From NCBI GenBank assembly GCA_902533075.1, contig CACAKN010000007.1, forward strand, positions 1 through 49,118: a stretch of DNA of 49,118 bases. Direction: 5' to 3'. Source of the DNA: an uncultured Pelagibacteraceae bacterium. Lineage in GTDB: Bacteria; Pseudomonadota; Alphaproteobacteria; Pelagibacterales; Pelagibacteraceae. The notes beneath the pieces are model-generated. The model did no database searches, had not been told where the DNA came from, and saw nothing but the letters and a program-made list of their open reading frames with translations. The number at the start of each line of letters is the position of its first letter. Positions within the stretch are counted from its first letter, which is position 1. The position numbers were made by a program, and so were the translations under genes. Below, one piece after another: positions 1 through 34,732 of the stretch.

Positions 1-1391
1 GAGCAGGTGGAAATGCAATTAATGAGATGATTGATAATGGAATGCAAGGTGTTGAATTTATTGCAGTAAATACAGATGCTCAAGATCTTAAACATAGTAA
101 GGCAAAATCTAAAATTCAAATCGGATTAAATCTAACGAAAGGTTTAGGTGCAGGTGCGAAACTTGATATTGGTCAAGCTGCAGCTGACGAATCTTTGAAT
201 GATATTGTTAATATTTTGCAGGGTGCAAATATGGTTTTTATTGCTGCAGGAATGGGTGGTGGTACAGGTACTGGTGCTGCACATGTAATTGCTAGAGCTG
301 CAAAAGAATTAAACATATTAACTGTAGGTGTGGTCACACTTCCTTTTTTATATGAAGGACCATCGAGAATGAGAAGAGCTCAAATAGGTCTTGAGGAATT
401 AAGAAAGCATGTAGATACAATTATAGTAATACCTAATCAAAATTTATTCAAAATTGCAAATGAACAAACAACATTTGAGGAATCTTTCAATCTTTCAAAT
501 AATGTATTGATGCATGGTGTTCAAAGTGTAACAGATTTAATGGTAAGACCTGGAATAATAAATCTTGATTTCGCTGATGTTGAAACTGTTATGGCTTCAA
601 TGGGTAAAGCAATGATGGGGACTGGAGAAGCAGAAGGTGAAGGAAGGGCTATGCAGGCAACAGAAATGGCAATTAGTAACCCATTAATTGACGACTACAC
701 TTTAAAGGGTGCTAAAGGATTATTAGTTAATATTACTGGAGGCAAAGATCTTAAATTGTTTGAGGTTGATGAGGTAGTGAATAAAATAAGGTCTGAAGTT
801 GAAGCTGATGCTGAGGTAATAATAGGAGCTATCACAGATCCTGAGCTAGATGGTAAAATTAGAGTTTCGATTGTTGCAACATCTTTAGACAATCAACAGC
901 CCGAGTCAAAATCTGTCGTAAATATGGTTCATAGAATACATAATCGTAACACAGGTTATTCTGATTTTGGAACAAATAACTCAACAACACCATTTTCTTT
1001 TACAAGCAATATATCAAATCAAGCCACTCAGGGTGCTAATGCTTTGAAGTTAGAAAATGAAGTTTTAACTGAAAATTTTAATGAAACAGTAGATGAGGTA
1101 AATAATCAGTATCATGAGGAGCTATTGAAAAATCAAGAAGCTGAAAATATTGTTGAGAATACCTCTGAGGAAAAAGAAATATCTTTTTCAGAAGAGGCTG
1201 TTTCAGCCACTGAGACTGATCAGAATGATACAAATAATCTGAAGGAATTTGGTGTGGATACTGACGAACCTGATTTATTTAATTCAGACAGTCAAGATTT
1301 ATCTTCAGAAGATTTGTTAAGTTCTTCTCAGGAAAATAGTGATGAAGATGATCTAGAAATCCCAGCATTTTTAAGAAGACAAAAAAATTAA
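1..1391 (+). CDS. ftsZ: Cell division protein FtsZ (5' end outside window)
   Basis: Tubulin-like GTPase that forms the division ring. The reading frame is open from base 3 ([11 protein letters not shown], the N-terminal nucleotide-binding loop), so only the first couple of dozen residues are missing. The tubulin signature [12 protein letters not shown] lies about 75 residues after the first ATG in the window. The globular GTPase domain is followed by a long acidic, Ser/Asn/Glu-rich linker of about 120 residues. The protein ends with IPAFLRRQ, the conserved C-terminal peptide of alphaproteobacterial FtsZ that binds membrane tethers such as FtsA. In most alphaproteobacteria ftsZ sits between ftsA and lpxC; here it precedes rsmH, and nothing lies between ftsA and lpxC. 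Identity is certain; the true start cannot be seen. Confidence 0.97.
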
Positions 1392-4406: not shown

Positions 4407-7256
4407 ATGCAACTCAAAGATTATATTCCAAACCTAAATAAAAGATACAATAATATTTTTTTCTCTGGTGTATCTTTTGATAGCACGAATGTCAAAAAGG
4501 GAGATATATTTTTTGCTATTAAAGGAAATAAATCTGATGGAAATAATTTTATAAAAGATGCGATTAAAAAAGGTGCCAAAATTATTATTTCAGAAAAAAA
4601 GTTTAGAAATAATAAAAATGCATTATTTTTATTTTCTCCAAATGTAAGAAAATTATTAGCTGAAGTTTCATATAAAATAGCTGCTGATAGACCTAAGGTT
4701 TTGCTAGCAGTTACCGGAACTAATGGAAAATCATCTATTGCAGACTTTTACTATCAAATATTGAATTTAAATTCAAAAAAAGTTGCTTCAATCGGAACTT
4801 TAGGCATTAGACATAAAGATTATAAAAAAACACTTAATCATACAACTTTAGATCCAATAAAATTAAGTTTATTATTGAAAGAATTAAAAAAAAAGAAAGT
4901 TAATTTTGTAATCTTGGAAGCATCTAGTCATGGTTTGAAACAGAATAGATTAGATGGATTAAATTTCGATATAGGTCTGTTTACAAATCTTTCCCATGAT
5001 CATTTAGATTATCATAAGAATATGAAAAACTATTTAGACTCAAAGTTATATTTATTTAGAAAATTGATCAAAAATAATGGCAATATAATCACTGATGCTA
5101 ACATTCCGCAAATTAATAAAATTCAACAAATTGCTACTAAAAAAAAATTGGAATTAAGCCTTATACATAGTAAAAAAAAAGGAGTCAGTCTTATTTCACA
5201 TAGCTATAAAAATGAACAACAAATTTTAAAGATTAATTTTAAAAATAAAGATTACTTAATCAAATTAAATTTAATAGGCAAGGTTCAAATAAAAAATATA
5301 CTTATGGCAATATTAGCAGCTAGCAAAAGCGGCCTTAAGTCAAAAAAAATAATTAACATTATACATAAAATAAAACCTGTTGAGGGTAGACTTGAAAAAA
5401 TTGGTAATATCAAAAATCACAGTAAAGTTGTCCTAGATTATGCACATACTCCAGCAGCATTAGAATTATCATTAATGAATCTAAAGGAACAATTTCCACA
5501 TAGCAAGATAAGCTTGGTTTTTGGATGCGGAGGAAATAGAGATTTTCAAAAAAGATCGATAATGGGAAGTATTGCTAAAAAATATTCTGATAAAATTTAT
5601 TTAACAGATGATAACCCAAGAAATGAAAATCCATCTAAAATTCGGAATGATATTAAAAAAGGAATTAAAAATGTTATGCTTTATGAAATAGCAAATAGAA
5701 AATTAGCGATAAATCAAGCAATAAAAAATCTTAATACTGGTGAATTACTTTTAGTGGCTGGAAAAGGCCATGAAAAAATCCAAGATTATGGAAACAAAAA
5801 ATTATTTTTTTCGGATAAAGAAATTATTTTGAAATCAATTAAATCAAAAAATAAACTTTTATCGAAAAATTTAAAATTAAATATAATTAAAGAGGAGTCT
5901 AAGTCTCAAATTTCTAATAATTTAAAGATTAAATCAATTTCGATTAATTCTAAAATAATAAAAAAAAATGATGTTTTTTTTGCAATTAAAGGACAAAAGA
6001 ATGATGGAAATAAGTTTGTTTCAGAAGCGTTGAAGAAAAAATCATGTCTAGCAATTGTAAATAGAATAGACAAAAATAATCCCCTGAAAAAGCAAATAAA
6101 AGTTAAGGATACTCTTAAATTTTTGACCAGATGTTCTTCAATTTTTAGAGAAAATATTGATGCAAAAATTTTTTCTATTACAGGAAGCTGTGGAAAGACA
6201 ACATTAAAAAATATGATTGGACTTACTTTAAAAAAAATTTCAAAAACAACTTTTTCACCAAAATCCTTTAATAATAAATATGGTGTCCCATTAAGCTTAT
6301 TTAATTTAAATCAAAATGATGATTTTGGGATTTTTGAAGTAGGTATGGATAAAAAAGGTGAAATAAATAAATTAACAAAAATAATTAAACCAGATTTAGG
6401 TATTATTACAAACATTAGCTACGCTCATTCGAGGAACTTTAAGAATATAAAACAGATTGCTGAAGCTAAAGCCGAAATAATGAATAATATTAAAGAGGGA
6501 GGAATTATAGTATTAAATAAAGATGATAATTTTTTTAATTATCACAAAAAAATTGCGTTAAAAAAAAAAATAAGGGTTGCTTCTTTTGGAATTACAAATA
6601 AGTCATCAATGACAAAATTAATTAAGATAAAAGAAAAAAATAAGAAATTTGAATTATTTATTAATGTTAATAATAAGTCTATCTCTTTCTATTCTCAAAA
6701 TGATAATAAAAGCAATATATATAATATATTGGCAACATTAACTGCTTTGAGTTTTTATATAGATATTAAAAGCTTAAAAAAAAATACTTTTTTAAGCCTT
6801 AGATCTCCCACTGGTAGAGGTGATATTTCAAAAATTTACTTTGAGAAAAAAAAGATTTTTTTAATAGACGAAAGTTATAATTCTAATCCTCTTTCCCTAA
6901 AAACAGCCATTGAAAATTTTGATAAATTAAAATCTAAAAATTCATACAAATATCTTATATTGGGTGACATGCTCGAATTAGGAAAACATTCAAAAAAACA
7001 ACATATATTGATTAGTGAAATAATTAATAAGACAAAAATTGATAAGGTTTATGTAGTTGGAAACTATATTAGAGAGACCTTTAAGCGACTGAAGAAAAAC
7101 AAAAAAGGTAAAATACTGAATAATAAATTTATTATAAATGATTTGATTAAAAACAATTTAAATAATAATGATTACTTAATGATAAAAGGATCTAATTCTA
7201 CAGGTCTCCATAAAGTAGCATCTAACTTAAAACAAAGAAGCTCAAATGTTATATGA
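4407..7256 (+). CDS. murE-murF: Bifunctional MurE-MurF fusion ligase
   Basis: One 949-residue frame with two complete Mur ligases. Residues 1 to about 480 are MurE, which adds meso-diaminopimelate to UDP-MurNAc-L-Ala-D-Glu: P-loop VTGTNGKSS near residue 101, LEASSHGL, and DNPRNEN near 400, the motif associated with diaminopimelate specificity. Residues from about 490 to the end are MurF, which adds D-Ala-D-Ala: a fresh N-terminal substrate domain (KSISINSKIIKKNDVFFAIK), P-loop ITGSCGKTTLKN near 590, and DESYNSNPLS. No stop or frameshift interrupts the joint. Such fusions are annotated in other proteobacteria, so it is uncommon but not new. An 11-A run lies at 6560-6570. The 3' end overlaps mraY by 11 bases. 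Confidence 0.96.
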   Translation: MQLKDYIPNLNKRYNNIFFSGVSFDSTNVKKGDIFFAIKGNKSDGNNFIKDAIKKGAKIIISEKKFRNNKNALFLFSPNVRKLLAEVSYKIAADRPKVLLAVTGTNGKSSIADFYYQILNLNSKKVASIGTLGIRHKDYKKTLNHTTLDPIKLSLLLKELKKKKVNFVILEASSHGLKQNRLDGLNFDIGLFTNLSHDHLDYHKNMKNYLDSKLYLFRKLIKNNGNIITDANIPQINKIQQIATKKKLELSLIHSKKKGVSLISHSYKNEQQILKINFKNKDYLIKLNLIGKVQIKNILMAILAASKSGLKSKKIINIIHKIKPVEGRLEKIGNIKNHSKVVLDYAHTPAALELSLMNLKEQFPHSKISLVFGCGGNRDFQKRSIMGSIAKKYSDKIYLTDDNPRNENPSKIRNDIKKGIKNVMLYEIANRKLAINQAIKNLNTGELLLVAGKGHEKIQDYGNKKLFFSDKEIILKSIKSKNKLLSKNLKLNIIKEESKSQISNNLKIKSISINSKIIKKNDVFFAIKGQKNDGNKFVSEALKKKSCLAIVNRIDKNNPLKKQIKVKDTLKFLTRCSSIFRENIDAKIFSITGSCGKTTLKNMIGLTLKKISKTTFSPKSFNNKYGVPLSLFNLNQNDDFGIFEVGMDKKGEINKLTKIIKPDLGIITNISYAHSRNFKNIKQIAEAKAEIMNNIKEGGIIVLNKDDNFFNYHKKIALKKKIRVASFGITNKSSMTKLIKIKEKNKKFELFINVNNKSISFYSQNDNKSNIYNILATLTALSFYIDIKSLKKNTFLSLRSPTGRGDISKIYFEKKKIFLIDESYNSNPLSLKTAIENFDKLKSKNSYKYLILGDMLELGKHSKKQHILISEIINKTKIDKVYVVGNYIRETFKRLKKNKKGKILNNKFIINDLIKNNLNNNDYLMIKGSNSTGLHKVASNLKQRSSNVI

Positions 7257-14104: not shown

Positions 14105-15019
14105 TTGAAAAAAAAAATATTAATAATATCAGGAGGCATATCAAAAGAGAGAGTTATAAGTCTTGAAACGGGCAGACAAGTTGCCAAAGAGCTTACTAAA
14201 AATAGTTATAATATTAAAATAATAGAACCAGATTTTAAATTGCTCGATGTTATTAAGTCATTTAAACCTAAAGTCATTTTTAATGCTTTACACGGACAGT
14301 TTGGTGAAGATGGTTATATACAGACAATCTTAGAGACTACTAATATTCCATATACACATTCAGGTGTAATTTCATCTGCGATAGCAATGGATAAAGATTT
14401 GTCAAAAAAAATTTTTGTTAAGAATAATATTTTAACACCAAAATATTTCTTATATTCATTTGATAAAAAAATATCTGAATTGATTAAAATAATTGATAAA
14501 AAATTAAAATTTCCAGTAATAATAAAACCAATAAATGAAGGTTCTAGTGTAAATGTATTTATTTGCACAAAACAAAATATTTCAAGAAAACTTAAATTAT
14601 TGAAAAATTATAAAAAGATAATTATTGAAAAATTTATTCCGGGCCGCGAAATACAAGCAGCAGTAATTGGATCTAAAAAACTTGGTGCAATTGAATTGAG
14701 ACCTAGGAGAAAATTTTATGATTATGAAGCAAAATATAATTCAAAAGCTAAAACTGAACATATTATTCCAGTTAACTTATCAAGAAAGAATTATAAAAAA
14801 ATTATGAATTTAGCATTAAAGGCACATAGATTAATAAATTGTAAGGGTGTAACTCGTTCAGATTTTAAATATTATAATGGAAAGTTTTATCTATTAGAAA
14901 TTAATACACAACCTGGCATGACGAGTTTATCTTTAGTGCCTGAAATTGCTTTATATCATGGTATAAGTTTTATTAAACTTATAGAATTAATTTTAAAAGA
15001 TGCTTCAACAAATAAGTAA
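14105..15019 (+). CDS. ddl: D-alanine--D-alanine ligase
   Basis: ATP-grasp ligase making the D-Ala-D-Ala used by the MurF half of the fusion upstream. 304 residues. Visible features: an N-terminal GGISKERVISLETG loop, ALHGQFGEDGYIQ, the ATP-grasp lysine region FPVIIKPINEGSSV, and LLEINTQPGMTSLSLVPE near the end. The start is TTG at 14105, one base after the murB stop; no in-frame ATG precedes the conserved glycine loop. The 3' end overlaps ftsQ by 20 bases. Confidence 0.95.
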   Translation: MKKKILIISGGISKERVISLETGRQVAKELTKNSYNIKIIEPDFKLLDVIKSFKPKVIFNALHGQFGEDGYIQTILETTNIPYTHSGVISSAIAMDKDLSKKIFVKNNILTPKYFLYSFDKKISELIKIIDKKLKFPVIIKPINEGSSVNVFICTKQNISRKLKLLKNYKKIIIEKFIPGREIQAAVIGSKKLGAIELRPRRKFYDYEAKYNSKAKTEHIIPVNLSRKNYKKIMNLALKAHRLINCKGVTRSDFKYYNGKFYLLEINTQPGMTSLSLVPEIALYHGISFIKLIELILKDASTNK

Positions 15020-15671
15020 AAAGATATTAATATATTTTTTCTTATTATTAATATTAGGAACAATTAATAATAAATTTTTAAGTAATATAAGTTTCCCAAA
15101 AATAAAAGACATAAAAATAAATGGTCTAGATGAAAATGAAAATATTGATTTTTTCAAAAAATTTGAAGAATTTAAGTCTTATGATTTATTTTTTTTAAAA
15201 CGTACAGAGGTTGATAAAAAAATTAACTCAAATAAATTGATTGAAAAATATTCTGTTTCAAAAGTATATCCATCAACTTTAATAATAAAATTAAAAAAAG
15301 CAAAATTTTTAGGAAATATTAGAAAGAATGGTGAAATTTTTTTTGTTGGTTCGAATGGAAAATTAATAAATGCCAAAATACAAAAAAAAGAGTTACCTTT
15401 TATCTTCGGAAAATTTGATTTCAAAAATTTTTTTACTTTGAAAAAAGATATTGATAATTCTTTATTTAATTATGAACAAATTGAAAATTTATTTATATTT
15501 CCATCAGGTAGATGGGATATTGAAACTAAATCTGGAATATTAATAAAGCTACCTAAAGATAGACAAAAAGAGTCATTAGATTTATTTTCTAAATTGATAA
15601 AAAATCCAAAATTTGAGAATTTAAAAGTTATTGATTTTCGACAAAAAAACCAAGTGATTGTTAATGAGTGA
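15000..15671 (+). CDS. ftsQ: Cell division protein FtsQ (divergent)
   Basis: Bitopic divisome protein of the FtsQLB complex. 223 residues: short cytoplasmic N-terminus, one transmembrane helix at about residues 8-26, then a POTRA-like segment (KIKDIKINGLDEN to the SVSKVYPSTLIIKLKKAKF strand) and a beta domain ending in IDFRQKNQVIVN, which corresponds to the usual C-terminal DLR element of FtsQ. It is shorter than the typical 250-280 residues and poorly conserved, but position between ddl and the ftsA-like gene supports it. It overlaps ddl by 20 bases and the next gene by eight. Confidence 0.88.
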   Translation: MLQQISKKILIYFFLLLILGTINNKFLSNISFPKIKDIKINGLDENENIDFFKKFEEFKSYDLFFLKRTEVDKKINSNKLIEKYSVSKVYPSTLIIKLKKAKFLGNIRKNGEIFFVGSNGKLINAKIQKKELPFIFGKFDFKNFFTLKKDIDNSLFNYEQIENLFIFPSGRWDIETKSGILIKLPKDRQKESLDLFSKLIKNPKFENLKVIDFRQKNQVIVNE

Positions 15672-16368
15672 AATTTTAAGTTTTGAAACATATCTATTAG
15701 TTACCAAAGAAAAATTTTCAATAAATGTGCTTAATAAGTTAAGTCAAAAAAATTTATATAAAAATGAAAAATTTATTGCAAATCATTTAAATGAAATTAA
15801 TTATGAACTTCTTAACAATTTTTTAAACGATAATATATTTATTATAGAAAGGAAATTAAAAAAGTTTATTAAAAATATTAATTTAATAATAGAATTTGAT
15901 ATTTTTTTTCCTGTGAAAATATCAGTTAAAAAAGATTTTCATGGAAATCTTTTAGAAAATAAAGATTTGAATCATCTTCTTCAAGAGACAAAAGAACAAT
16001 GCCTTAATACATTGGAGGGTTTCAAAATAGCACACATGACAGTTGAAAATTATAAAATCGATGAAAAAAATTTCTCATATTTTCCAGAGAAAATTAACTG
16101 TAACAATTTAGTTATAGATGTTGGTTTCATTGGTATCCCACATTTTTATTTAAATAATTTTGATAGTATTCTAAAAAATTACCATATTTCAATAAACCAA
16201 GTATTTTCTGCAAAATATCTTAATGATTTTTTTAAAGATAAAGAAAAAGATATTTTTAAAATGGCAAAAAATATAACTGAGGGTTGTAATCCAAACGAAG
16301 TTTTGTTTATTCAAAAACCTTTGAAAAATACAGGTTTTTTTGAAAGATTTTTTCATTTTTTCAATTAG
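15664..16368 (+). CDS. ftsA: Reduced FtsA-like protein lacking an evident ATPase core
   Basis: A 234-residue protein in the ftsA slot between ftsQ and lpxC; ordinary FtsA is about 410-440 residues. ATG 15664 is preferred to the upstream TTG 15658. The N-terminal actin phosphate loop (DIGT-type) is not recognisable. Residues of roughly 50-190 resemble the FtsA 1A/1C region: a helix with KKFIKNIN, beta strands, LNHLLQETKEQCL, then KIAHMTVENYKIDEKNF, which parallels the HxIPQxYxVDG element, and LVIDVGFIGIPHFYLNNFDS. Instead of domains 2A/2B (about 200 residues with the second phosphate and adenosine motifs) only about 50 residues follow. The last ten, FFERFFHFFN, form an amphipathic aromatic/basic helix like the membrane-targeting tail of FtsA. 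Family assignment is from synteny and these similarities; it is an inference. No stop codons suggest decay. Confidence 0.65.
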   Translation: MSEILSFETYLLVTKEKFSINVLNKLSQKNLYKNEKFIANHLNEINYELLNNFLNDNIFIIERKLKKFIKNINLIIEFDIFFPVKISVKKDFHGNLLENKDLNHLLQETKEQCLNTLEGFKIAHMTVENYKIDEKNFSYFPEKINCNNLVIDVGFIGIPHFYLNNFDSILKNYHISINQVFSAKYLNDFFKDKEKDIFKMAKNITEGCNPNEVLFIQKPLKNTGFFERFFHFFN

Positions 16369-16432: not shown

Positions 16433-17353
16433 GTGTCAGGATTAAATCAAAAAACTGTTAAAAAAGAAATTATATTTTCAGGAGCAGGCCTTCATAATGG
16501 CAAGATAGCTAATATGAGTATAAAGCCTGGAAATCCAAATACTGGTATAATTTTTAAAAGAATTGATATTAAAAATAATAATTTGATAATACCCAATTTT
16601 ATCAATGTAACAAATACTTCTTTAAACACAACTATTTCAAATGATCAAGGAGTTAAAGTTTCAACTATAGAACATTTGATGGGAGCTTTATTTGGCCTAG
16701 GAATTGATAATGCTTTAATTGAAATAGATAATGAGGAAATTCCAATTCTGGATGGTTCAGCCAAAGAATTTATAGAAAAAATTGTTGAAACAGGTTTTCA
16801 AGATAGCGATGCACCATTAAAAATTATTAAAATTAACAAAAAAATACAATTTAATGATGGAGAAAGATTTATTTCAATTGAACCATCAAAACTAAGTTTA
16901 GACATAAATTTTGAATTAAAATATGAAAACCCAATAATTGGTAATCAAAAAAATATAATTAGTGTTTATGAGGATGATTTAAATGAAATATTTGAGTCTA
17001 GAACATTTTGTTTATTTGAAGATATTGAGAAGATAAAAAAAAATGGCCTTGCTAAAGGTGGAAGTTTAGATAACGCAATAGTAGTTAAAGAAAATAAAAT
17101 TTTGAACAATAACGGTTTAAGAAATCCAGAAGAGTTCGTTAATCACAAAATACTTGACTGTATTGGTGATCTTTATACTTGTGGTTATAGAATTATAGCT
17201 TCAATTAATTGTTCTCAAGGGGGACATTATTTTACAAATCAACTATTGAGAAAAGTATTTGAAAATAAAGAGAATTTCTCGATTGTAGAAATAAAAGAAA
17301 GAAATTTACCACACTCTATTATTAATAGAAGTTTACTTAGATCTATAGCATAA
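16433..17353 (+). CDS. lpxC: UDP-3-O-acyl-N-acetylglucosamine deacetylase LpxC
   Basis: Zinc deacetylase for the committed step of lipid A synthesis. 306 residues, the usual length. Zinc and catalytic residues fall at the Escherichia coli spacing: E80-H81 in STIEHLMGAL, His/Asp in NHKILDCIGDL (about 238 and 242) and His in GGHYFTNQLL (about 265). The start is GTG 16433; the SGLNQKTVKKEI beginning fits the family and no ATG lies upstream in frame before the preceding gene. The 64-base AT-rich gap after the ftsA-like gene is the longest spacer in the cluster and may hold a promoter, though no convincing -35/-10 pair was seen. Confidence 0.96.
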   Translation: MSGLNQKTVKKEIIFSGAGLHNGKIANMSIKPGNPNTGIIFKRIDIKNNNLIIPNFINVTNTSLNTTISNDQGVKVSTIEHLMGALFGLGIDNALIEIDNEEIPILDGSAKEFIEKIVETGFQDSDAPLKIIKINKKIQFNDGERFISIEPSKLSLDINFELKYENPIIGNQKNIISVYEDDLNEIFESRTFCLFEDIEKIKKNGLAKGGSLDNAIVVKENKILNNNGLRNPEEFVNHKILDCIGDLYTCGYRIIASINCSQGGHYFTNQLLRKVFENKENFSIVEIKERNLPHSIINRSLLRSIA

Positions 17354-33958: not shown

Positions 33959-34732
33959 ATGAAAAAACTTAAACTGTTTGCTCTTACAGTTGTAGCCCTA
34001 ATGGGTGTTACAACAGTTGCAAACGCTGCGACCGCTATGTTAGCTCAAGATGACTTCGTTGGAATATCTTTTTGGATAATTTCAATGGGTATGTTGGCTT
34101 CAACTGCTTTTTTCTTTATGGAAAGAAGTACTGTTAATCCTGCATGGAAGACATCAGTAACAGTAGCTGGTCTAGTAACTGGTATTGCTTTTATCCATTA
34201 CATGTACATGAGGGATGTATGGGTAACAACTGGCGATTCACCAACAGTATACAGATATATTGACTGGTTAATTACTGTGCCATTACAGATGATAGAGTTC
34301 TACTTAATTCTAGTAGCTGTAAGAAAAGCAAGCTCTGGAATTTTCTGGAGATTGTTAATTGGTTCATTAGTAATGTTAATCGGTGGATACTTAGGAGAAG
34401 CTGGATACATCAACGCTACACTTGGTTTCATTATCGGTATGGCAGGTTGGGTATACATTCTTTATGAAGTATTCTCAGGTGAAGCTGGAAAAGCTGCTTC
34501 TAAAAGTGGAAACAAAGCTCTTGTTACCGCTTTCGGTGCAATGAGAATGATCGTTACAGTAGGTTGGGCAATTTACCCGCTAGGTTATGTATTTGGTTAC
34601 CTAACAGGTGGTGTAGATGCTAACTCACTAAACGTTGTTTACAATTTAGCTGACTTCATTAACAAAATTGCTTTCGGTCTAGTAATCTGGGCTGCAGCAG
34701 TAAGTTCTGGAGCTGGTGCAAGAAGCAGATAA
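33959..34732 (+). CDS. Proteorhodopsin, blue-tuned type
   Basis: Light-driven proton pump with retinal, in the inner membrane. 257 residues: a cleavable-looking signal (residues 1-23, ending VANA) and seven helices. Key residues: His80 in FIHYMYMRD, proton acceptor Asp102 in RYIDWLITVPLQM, proton donor Glu113 in MIEFYLI, and the retinal Schiff-base Lys236 in DFINKIAFG. All are five above the classical green proteorhodopsin numbering (75, 97, 108, 231). The spectral-tuning residue (classical 105) is Gln110, which indicates blue absorption; Leu or Met would indicate green. Codon use is richer in C/G-ending codons than in neighbours, as expected for a highly expressed gene. No retinal or carotenoid synthesis genes are in the window. 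Confidence 0.98.
   Translation: MKKLKLFALTVVALMGVTTVANAATAMLAQDDFVGISFWIISMGMLASTAFFFMERSTVNPAWKTSVTVAGLVTGIAFIHYMYMRDVWVTTGDSPTVYRYIDWLITVPLQMIEFYLILVAVRKASSGIFWRLLIGSLVMLIGGYLGEAGYINATLGFIIGMAGWVYILYEVFSGEAGKAASKSGNKALVTAFGAMRMIVTVGWAIYPLGYVFGYLTGGVDANSLNVVYNLADFINKIAFGLVIWAAAVSSGAGARSR

Follow-up and report, generated by a model that had tools for sequence, protein, structure and literature searches.

FtsA is an ATP-binding relative of actin that gates division through its polymer state and anchors FtsZ through its subdomain 2B; ftsA and ftsZ are usually neighbours, and FtsN is the best-known ligand of subdomain 1C. A reduced, membrane-linked version of the FtsA/PilM-type actin fold occurs in the cytoplasmic domain of GspL/EpsL, a type II secretion component that works without nucleotide. 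SAR11 bacteria, in which we studied the fate of ftsA, are one of the most abundant bacterial groups of the ocean. One report on studied FtsA (PMC4281207) states that deletion of 2B abolishes the interaction with FtsZ and that 1C mediates self-interaction and recruits FtsQ and FtsN. A second (PMC7613929) assigns the lateral contacts of FtsA almost exclusively to 1C and the longitudinal contact to IIA-IIB, seats FtsN in the 1A-1C cleft, and notes that PilM likewise has 1C, together with a cleft to which a short cytoplasmic tail binds. A model in a third (PMC5508204) has freed 1C recruiting late proteins. FtsA is represented by TIGR01174 and by the PDB entries 1e4f and 4a2a (T. maritima), 7q6d (E. 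coli), and 7q6f and 7q6i (V. maritimus).

A shortened ftsA ortholog between ftsQ and lpxC

The window, by which we mean the whole 49,118-nucleotide stretch of DNA that was analysed, is one contig of a 970-kb draft genome (G000) that is 75% complete. A preliminary description, made from its letters alone, had placed a half-length protein in the ftsA slot. Indeed, an intact open reading frame of 234 aa (15664..16368; ATG start, TAG stop) stands there, on the + strand like ftsQ, lpxC, ftsZ and the subdomains mapped below. It overlaps ftsQ (15000..15671) by 8 nt and is followed by lpxC (16433..17353), the downstream syntenic marker; the ftsQ-ftsA neighbourhood typical of FtsA is present. The ftsZ gene (27..1391), truncated at its 5′ end where the contig begins, lies ~15.6 kb upstream of ftsA and heads a cell-wall cluster, ahead of an rsmH-like gene. 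The distance between the two genes is 14.8–15.8 kb in the 15 genomes with both placed, and their usual adjacency is broken in short-form and long-form genomes alike. Two other genes of the window deserve mention: a 949-aa open reading frame (4407-7256), in which stretches of the Mur ligase middle domain and C-terminal domain each occur twice, is probably a MurE-MurF fusion, and a 257-aa bacteriorhodopsin-family protein (33959-34732; PF01036, E 3.9e-53) is presumably a proteorhodopsin.

Taken alone, the window protein matched no FtsA family in Pfam or NCBIfam, unlike the alignment of its family, which does match FtsA models. Short members fit these models weakly: 64 of 76 short orthologs matched TIGR01174 (ftsA) at E ≤ 0.1 (best 5.9e-13), matches that, judging by their E-values, probably lie below the curated cut-off, and 28 of the 76 matched SHS2_FTSA at E ≤ 1 (best 6.7e-7). 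Comparison of the short with the long FtsA profile gave 99.9% (E 1e-36), and against the PDB the short-family profile found 7q6d (E 0.0013), with residues 48–189 lying on FtsA residues 55–194.

The AlphaFold model of the short protein had a mean pLDDT of 88.6 and a pTM of 0.82; its confidence is low beyond residue 210. Searches with this model returned FtsA at ranks 1–19 in Foldseek (best E 1.6e-13) and at ranks 1–11 in VIA-align (best 3wt0: Z 15.0, rmsd 4.3, 206 residues). A predicted structure unrelated to FtsA 1C was thus looked for and not encountered; the model is that of FtsA 1A plus 1C, and the profile, the SHS2_FTSA matches and the predicted fold agree on the FtsA-like 1C segment that the preliminary description had recognized. 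After FtsA, both searches gave PilM (Z 10.6, rmsd 4.0, 178 residues), a whole actin-type protein of the type IV pilus pathway with ATP in its solved structures, to judge by their titles, and then GspL/EpsL (Z 10.4, rmsd 4.2, 153 residues). The latter match, a comparison by structure alone, is weaker than that to FtsA, and short ftsA lies in a division and cell-wall cluster rather than in a secretion system.

We conclude that the 234-aa gene is orthologous to ftsA and owes its short length to an internal deletion. Its product shares with FtsA the slot after ftsQ, the 1A half-sheet, 1C, the terminal 1A helix, the C-terminal amphipathic helix, and homology in sequence and fold; it differs in having neither 2A, 2B, part of 1A nor either phosphate loop, and in its length (234 vs. 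~370–420 aa). Ancestry and position make it FtsA, but since two defining features, the nucleotide site and 2A/2B, are missing, “FtsA-derived protein” suits it better than “working FtsA”.

Parts lost and parts kept

Aligned with long forms, the short proteins miss one block of ~140–175 residues, with homology on both flanks; the block covers part of 1A, 2A, and 2B. Before it stand the N-terminal half of 1A (residues 7–76; 15682..15891), in which the model has strands at 7–13, 17–24, 30–37, and 71–76 and a helix at 47–65, and the SHS2-type subdomain 1C (residues 82–182; 15907..16209), supported by profile alignment to 7q6d and by the SHS2_FTSA matches. The deletion junction falls at about residues 190–196 (16232..16251), a position taken from the alignment with long orthologs and uncertain by ~5 residues. 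Beyond it follow the last helix of 1A (residues 197–205; 16252..16278), placed by alignment and predicted fold, a linker (residues 206–223; 16279..16332), and the C-terminal amphipathic helix GFFERFFHFFN (residues 224–234; 16333..16365); here short L168 reads NICESGLKLIKGINKQEVAIVPRKLEKKGFFERLFHFFK and long L143 reads DICESGLKVIKGQSKQEVVIVPKKIEKKGFFEKLFHFFK. The preliminary description's inventory of what was kept, 1C and the terminal helix, stood, and its peptides KIAHMTVENYKIDEKNF and FFERFFHFFN are both present in the 234-aa protein; it was incomplete, however, in that a folded half of 1A and the last 1A helix are also kept.

The phosphate-1 motif D-x-G, lost from the window's 1A half, occurs in none of 91 distinct short proteins vs. 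all 25 long proteins of the genus, and the alignment puts the phosphate-2 region inside the deleted part. The same counts (0/91 vs. 25/25) hold for the R..E[IL] pair of the 2B region; this pair aligns with R301 and E304 of T. maritima FtsA, which we take to be FtsZ-tail contacts. PF14450 was matched by 39 of 39 long proteins and was not among the 25 families listed, of 37, for the 76 short orthologs. Long FtsA of the same genus, such as the 371-aa L140, has the same slot and is homologous over 1A-1C and the C-terminal helix, but it keeps the D-x-G motif and the R..E pair, and it models as a whole FtsA (pLDDT 86.7; Z 30.5, rmsd 3.5, 335 residues). The shortest long forms (370–383 aa) are already without ~17 columns of the 2B region. 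Comparison with long orthologs from the genus and the family thus bears out the original description, in that the phosphate-1 loop and 2A/2B are missing, and the proposal that the short protein does not bind nucleotide is, on these motif counts, well supported.

Sixteen further long proteins were read, 15 of other genera plus L153, which is coded as the same genus but groups with them on the tree. Two have D-x-G and ten have E-x-G; in long FtsA of other genera (L014–L030), E-x-G often stands where phosphate-1 would have D-x-G, and therefore nucleotide use may already be altered there. The R..E pattern was found in 15 of the 16, the sixteenth, L015, reading RISEI, which the pattern misses. The short protein L032 has DLSST where long forms have D-x-G-S, possibly a transitional state.

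Is the shortened gene a decaying remnant, of little function and heading for loss? Short ftsA evolves fast, and broken short frames occur in three genomes (G078, G253, and G414). Purifying selection, however, is evident: among 73 close pairs from 31 sequences (dS restricted to 0.05–0.4), dN/dS by the Nei-Gojobori method was 0.104–0.376 (median 0.233), and no pair reached 1. For comparison, ftsQ gave 0.195 (87 pairs) and lpxC 0.086 (17 pairs); the full set of 2301 pairs (median 0.577) was set aside because saturation inflates dN/dS. Also contrary to decay are the confident predicted fold, the strongly conserved terminal helix, the fixed place between ftsQ and lpxC, and the predominance of intact over broken short frames (69 vs. 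2) in the 18-row profile search of the genus described below. We consider decay very improbable.

Residues 224–234 are by far the most conserved part of the short protein, with a mean column entropy of 0.73 bits vs. 1.87–2.45 elsewhere. A helix is predicted at 225–232 (pLDDT ~58), which upholds the amphipathic helix as a sequence feature; it is a predicted membrane-targeting sequence. Contrary to a simple reading, the hydrophobic moment peaks at residues 60–73 (0.90), above the terminal helix (0.58). Four residues (E62, H124, E212, and F230) show no variation among the 76 short orthologs. The third belongs to the linker motif G-x-N-x-N-E-V, conserved despite low predicted order; its E-V is also present in several long forms.

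Distribution of the two forms and number of origins

A protein search found matches in 81 of 118 genomes of the same family. Many of the matching frames in the window's genus measured 220–245 aa; in other genera, frames matching around 1C were mostly ~395–424 aa, with a few of 296–358 aa or broken, and the tabulated frames of this kind included none of 220–260 aa. Within the genus, a profile of 18 rows matched 137 of 201 genomes. By our own sorting of these matches, 69 of the 201 genomes carry an intact short frame (220–246 aa, median 234) and 45 a long frame (370–402 aa, median 390), and the remaining matches are incomplete stretches (20) or broken frames (3). A profile of 76 short rows matched 242 of 297 genomes of the order, the matches listed, and so the lengths covered, being those of the window's genus.

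The slot was also read from the lpxC side, in 80 relatives, the best of 232, whose titles name Pelagibacteraceae, Pelagibacterales or Candidatus Pelagibacter ubique. It was complete at 63 of these loci and short at all 63 (220–244 aa), a proportion that gives no frequency for SAR11 because the choice of the 80 favours the window's close kin; another 12 loci were cut by a contig end, and five start close to lpxC. The short form is common to a large clade and is not a local accident. Normal-length orthologs, sought as a sign of a local deletion, do exist, but in other lineages, and the frame is intact, as had been claimed.

A split gene or an assembly artefact, with the 2A/2B half elsewhere or lost in assembly, might be suspected from a draft genome that is 75% complete. 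We give this almost no credence: the same short structure recurs in many separately assembled genomes, including the single-contig G003, G017, G035, and G063, and the PF14450 match over cut-off in ten genomes with the short gene is MreB.

Some slots hold damaged genes. Short frames are broken in G078 (L013/L166), G253, and G414, and the long gene of G127 (L181) has one in-frame TAA; either assembly error or decay would account for them. In the genus, 64 genomes had no match. A reading of genomes without a match as having lost ftsA was dropped after lpxC was checked in six genomes, five without an ftsA match in the family or genus search plus G088, which has a fragment. The form in G043 has 387 aa, contig ends interrupt G069 and G088, and lpxC of G109 starts at a contig end; in this check lpxC was not found in G194 or G196 either.

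Trees of flanking proteins (131 rows with six proteins; 59 rows with nine) place long forms among the short. The 59-row tree has four short lineages: the main clade, {L168, L170, L164, L169}, {L165, L167}, and L172. A single short group was rejected on the flanking genes (p-AU 0.0021; 28 short vs. 30 long rows), and union of the main clade with the four-row group gave p 0.0466, which is borderline for a group chosen after the tree had been seen. In the tree of FtsA alone (234 shared columns), by contrast, all short rows fall on one side of a branch with support 67/97. L181, with its in-frame stop, was left out of the origin tests, the FtsA alignment, and the FtsA tree. The conflict might stem from gene exchange, from an error in a tree or from convergence, and one deletion with gene exchange, or several deletions, are possible; because the trees conflict, we claim no number.

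The remaining divisome and a proposed role for short FtsA

We surveyed division proteins in 16 genomes: that of the window, 11 others with the short gene (including G078, with its broken frame), and four long-form genomes. Ten of the 11 have exactly one PF14450 match over cut-off, and all ten matches, considered as candidates for a second FtsA, proved to be MreB; G097 and the 75%-complete window genome have none over cut-off. In the long-form genomes (G074, G026, G101, and G043), the ftsA slot comes in addition. A full FtsA elsewhere in the surveyed short-form genomes, which would have accounted for a half-length protein in the slot, was thus not found, their one strong PF14450 match being MreB.

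FtsZ was found in 15 of the 16 genomes. Its tail core with IPAFLRRQ, plus one final residue, is kept in all 15, in line with the FtsZ ending first reported for the window. The 14 C-terminal residues are identical in 12, three long-form genomes among them; in G083, G051, and G093, all short-form, one or two flanking residues differ. ZapA is present in 14 of the 16 genomes. ZipA was found in none of the 16, SepF gave six partial matches (E 0.07–0.30) with none over cut-off, and FtsE likewise had no match over cut-off, FtsE-like ABC proteins being present in all 16. SPOR domains were matched in 12 of the 16 genomes at E ≤ 1, five of them over cut-off. FtsN was not found among them: the ten SPOR loci that were read hold ~250-aa proteins that are not bitopic and, because of their lipoprotein-like start, would be without a cytoplasmic tail. 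Identification of these by eye as RlpA was abandoned, since Pfam gave SPOR only, or nothing, in the five tested.

How might such a protein act? We think it rather probable that short FtsA works independently of nucleotide, as a membrane-bound 1A/1C adaptor that serves other divisome proteins, and that FtsZ is tethered otherwise. An internal deletion took part of 1A with 2A and 2B, the phosphate-1 loop being gone as well, and left a 1A/1C unit hanging on the linker and the conserved amphipathic helix, which probably seats the protein on the inner membrane. Short FtsA would then be unable to bind ATP or to form actin-type protofilaments via IIA-IIB, and, the known 2B site being missing, would not bind the FtsZ tail there. 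Its 1A/1C cleft and 1C surface may bring in septal-synthesis proteins or activate them with no polymer switch under ATP control; the protein would be permanently “on”, a constitutively exposed 1C adaptor, and the anchor of FtsZ would be a different protein or else a new site on short FtsA. Measured against studied FtsA, the SAR11 protein retains the recruiting and membrane parts and drops those for polymerisation, nucleotide, and the FtsZ tail. Several observations count against the adaptor reading: no FtsN, its presumed partner, at the ten SPOR loci read, no other FtsZ tether over cut-off, the weak fit of short members to FtsA models, a hydrophobic moment that is higher elsewhere than in the terminal helix, and the broken short frames. 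The evolutionary account, in which SAR11 dropped the actin half of FtsA, possibly more than once, and kept a nucleotide-free 1A/1C membrane adaptor while another protein or site holds the FtsZ tail, strikes us as evenly poised between right and wrong.

The preliminary description had suggested a minimal tether that binds no nucleotide, or an adaptor with a different way of reading FtsZ. Since ZipA is found in none of the 16 genomes, and SepF and FtsE in none over cut-off, short FtsA may itself remain the tether: the EIPAFLRRQ tail would bind a new 1A/1C site or the G-x-N-x-N-E-V linker of a nucleotide-free membrane protein. The tail core kept in 15 of 15 FtsZ proteins fits this reading, as does the invariance of E212 in a region of low order, as is often seen in linear binding motifs. 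The known tail site is gone, however, and any other tail-binding protein would explain the conservation of the tail equally well. Moreover, E-V stands in the same linker of several long forms that keep 2B, and therefore did not arise to replace 2B. We regard a tethering role as unlikely, if worth keeping in mind; the data agree no less well with an adaptor that serves other divisome proteins while something else holds FtsZ.

Searches of open-access literature, from which most subscription papers are absent, showed no previous account of a short FtsA in SAR11. A conserved natural FtsA that has neither nucleotide site nor 2B offers a separation of functions ready to study: it raises the question of which FtsA duties, such as 1C recruitment and membrane binding, are indispensable, and it points to another anchor for FtsZ. 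The occurrence of long and short forms inside one genus permits a before-and-after comparison. If the proposed role is true, some of the most common marine bacteria would divide without needing ATP-driven FtsA polymerisation or anchoring of FtsZ by 2B.
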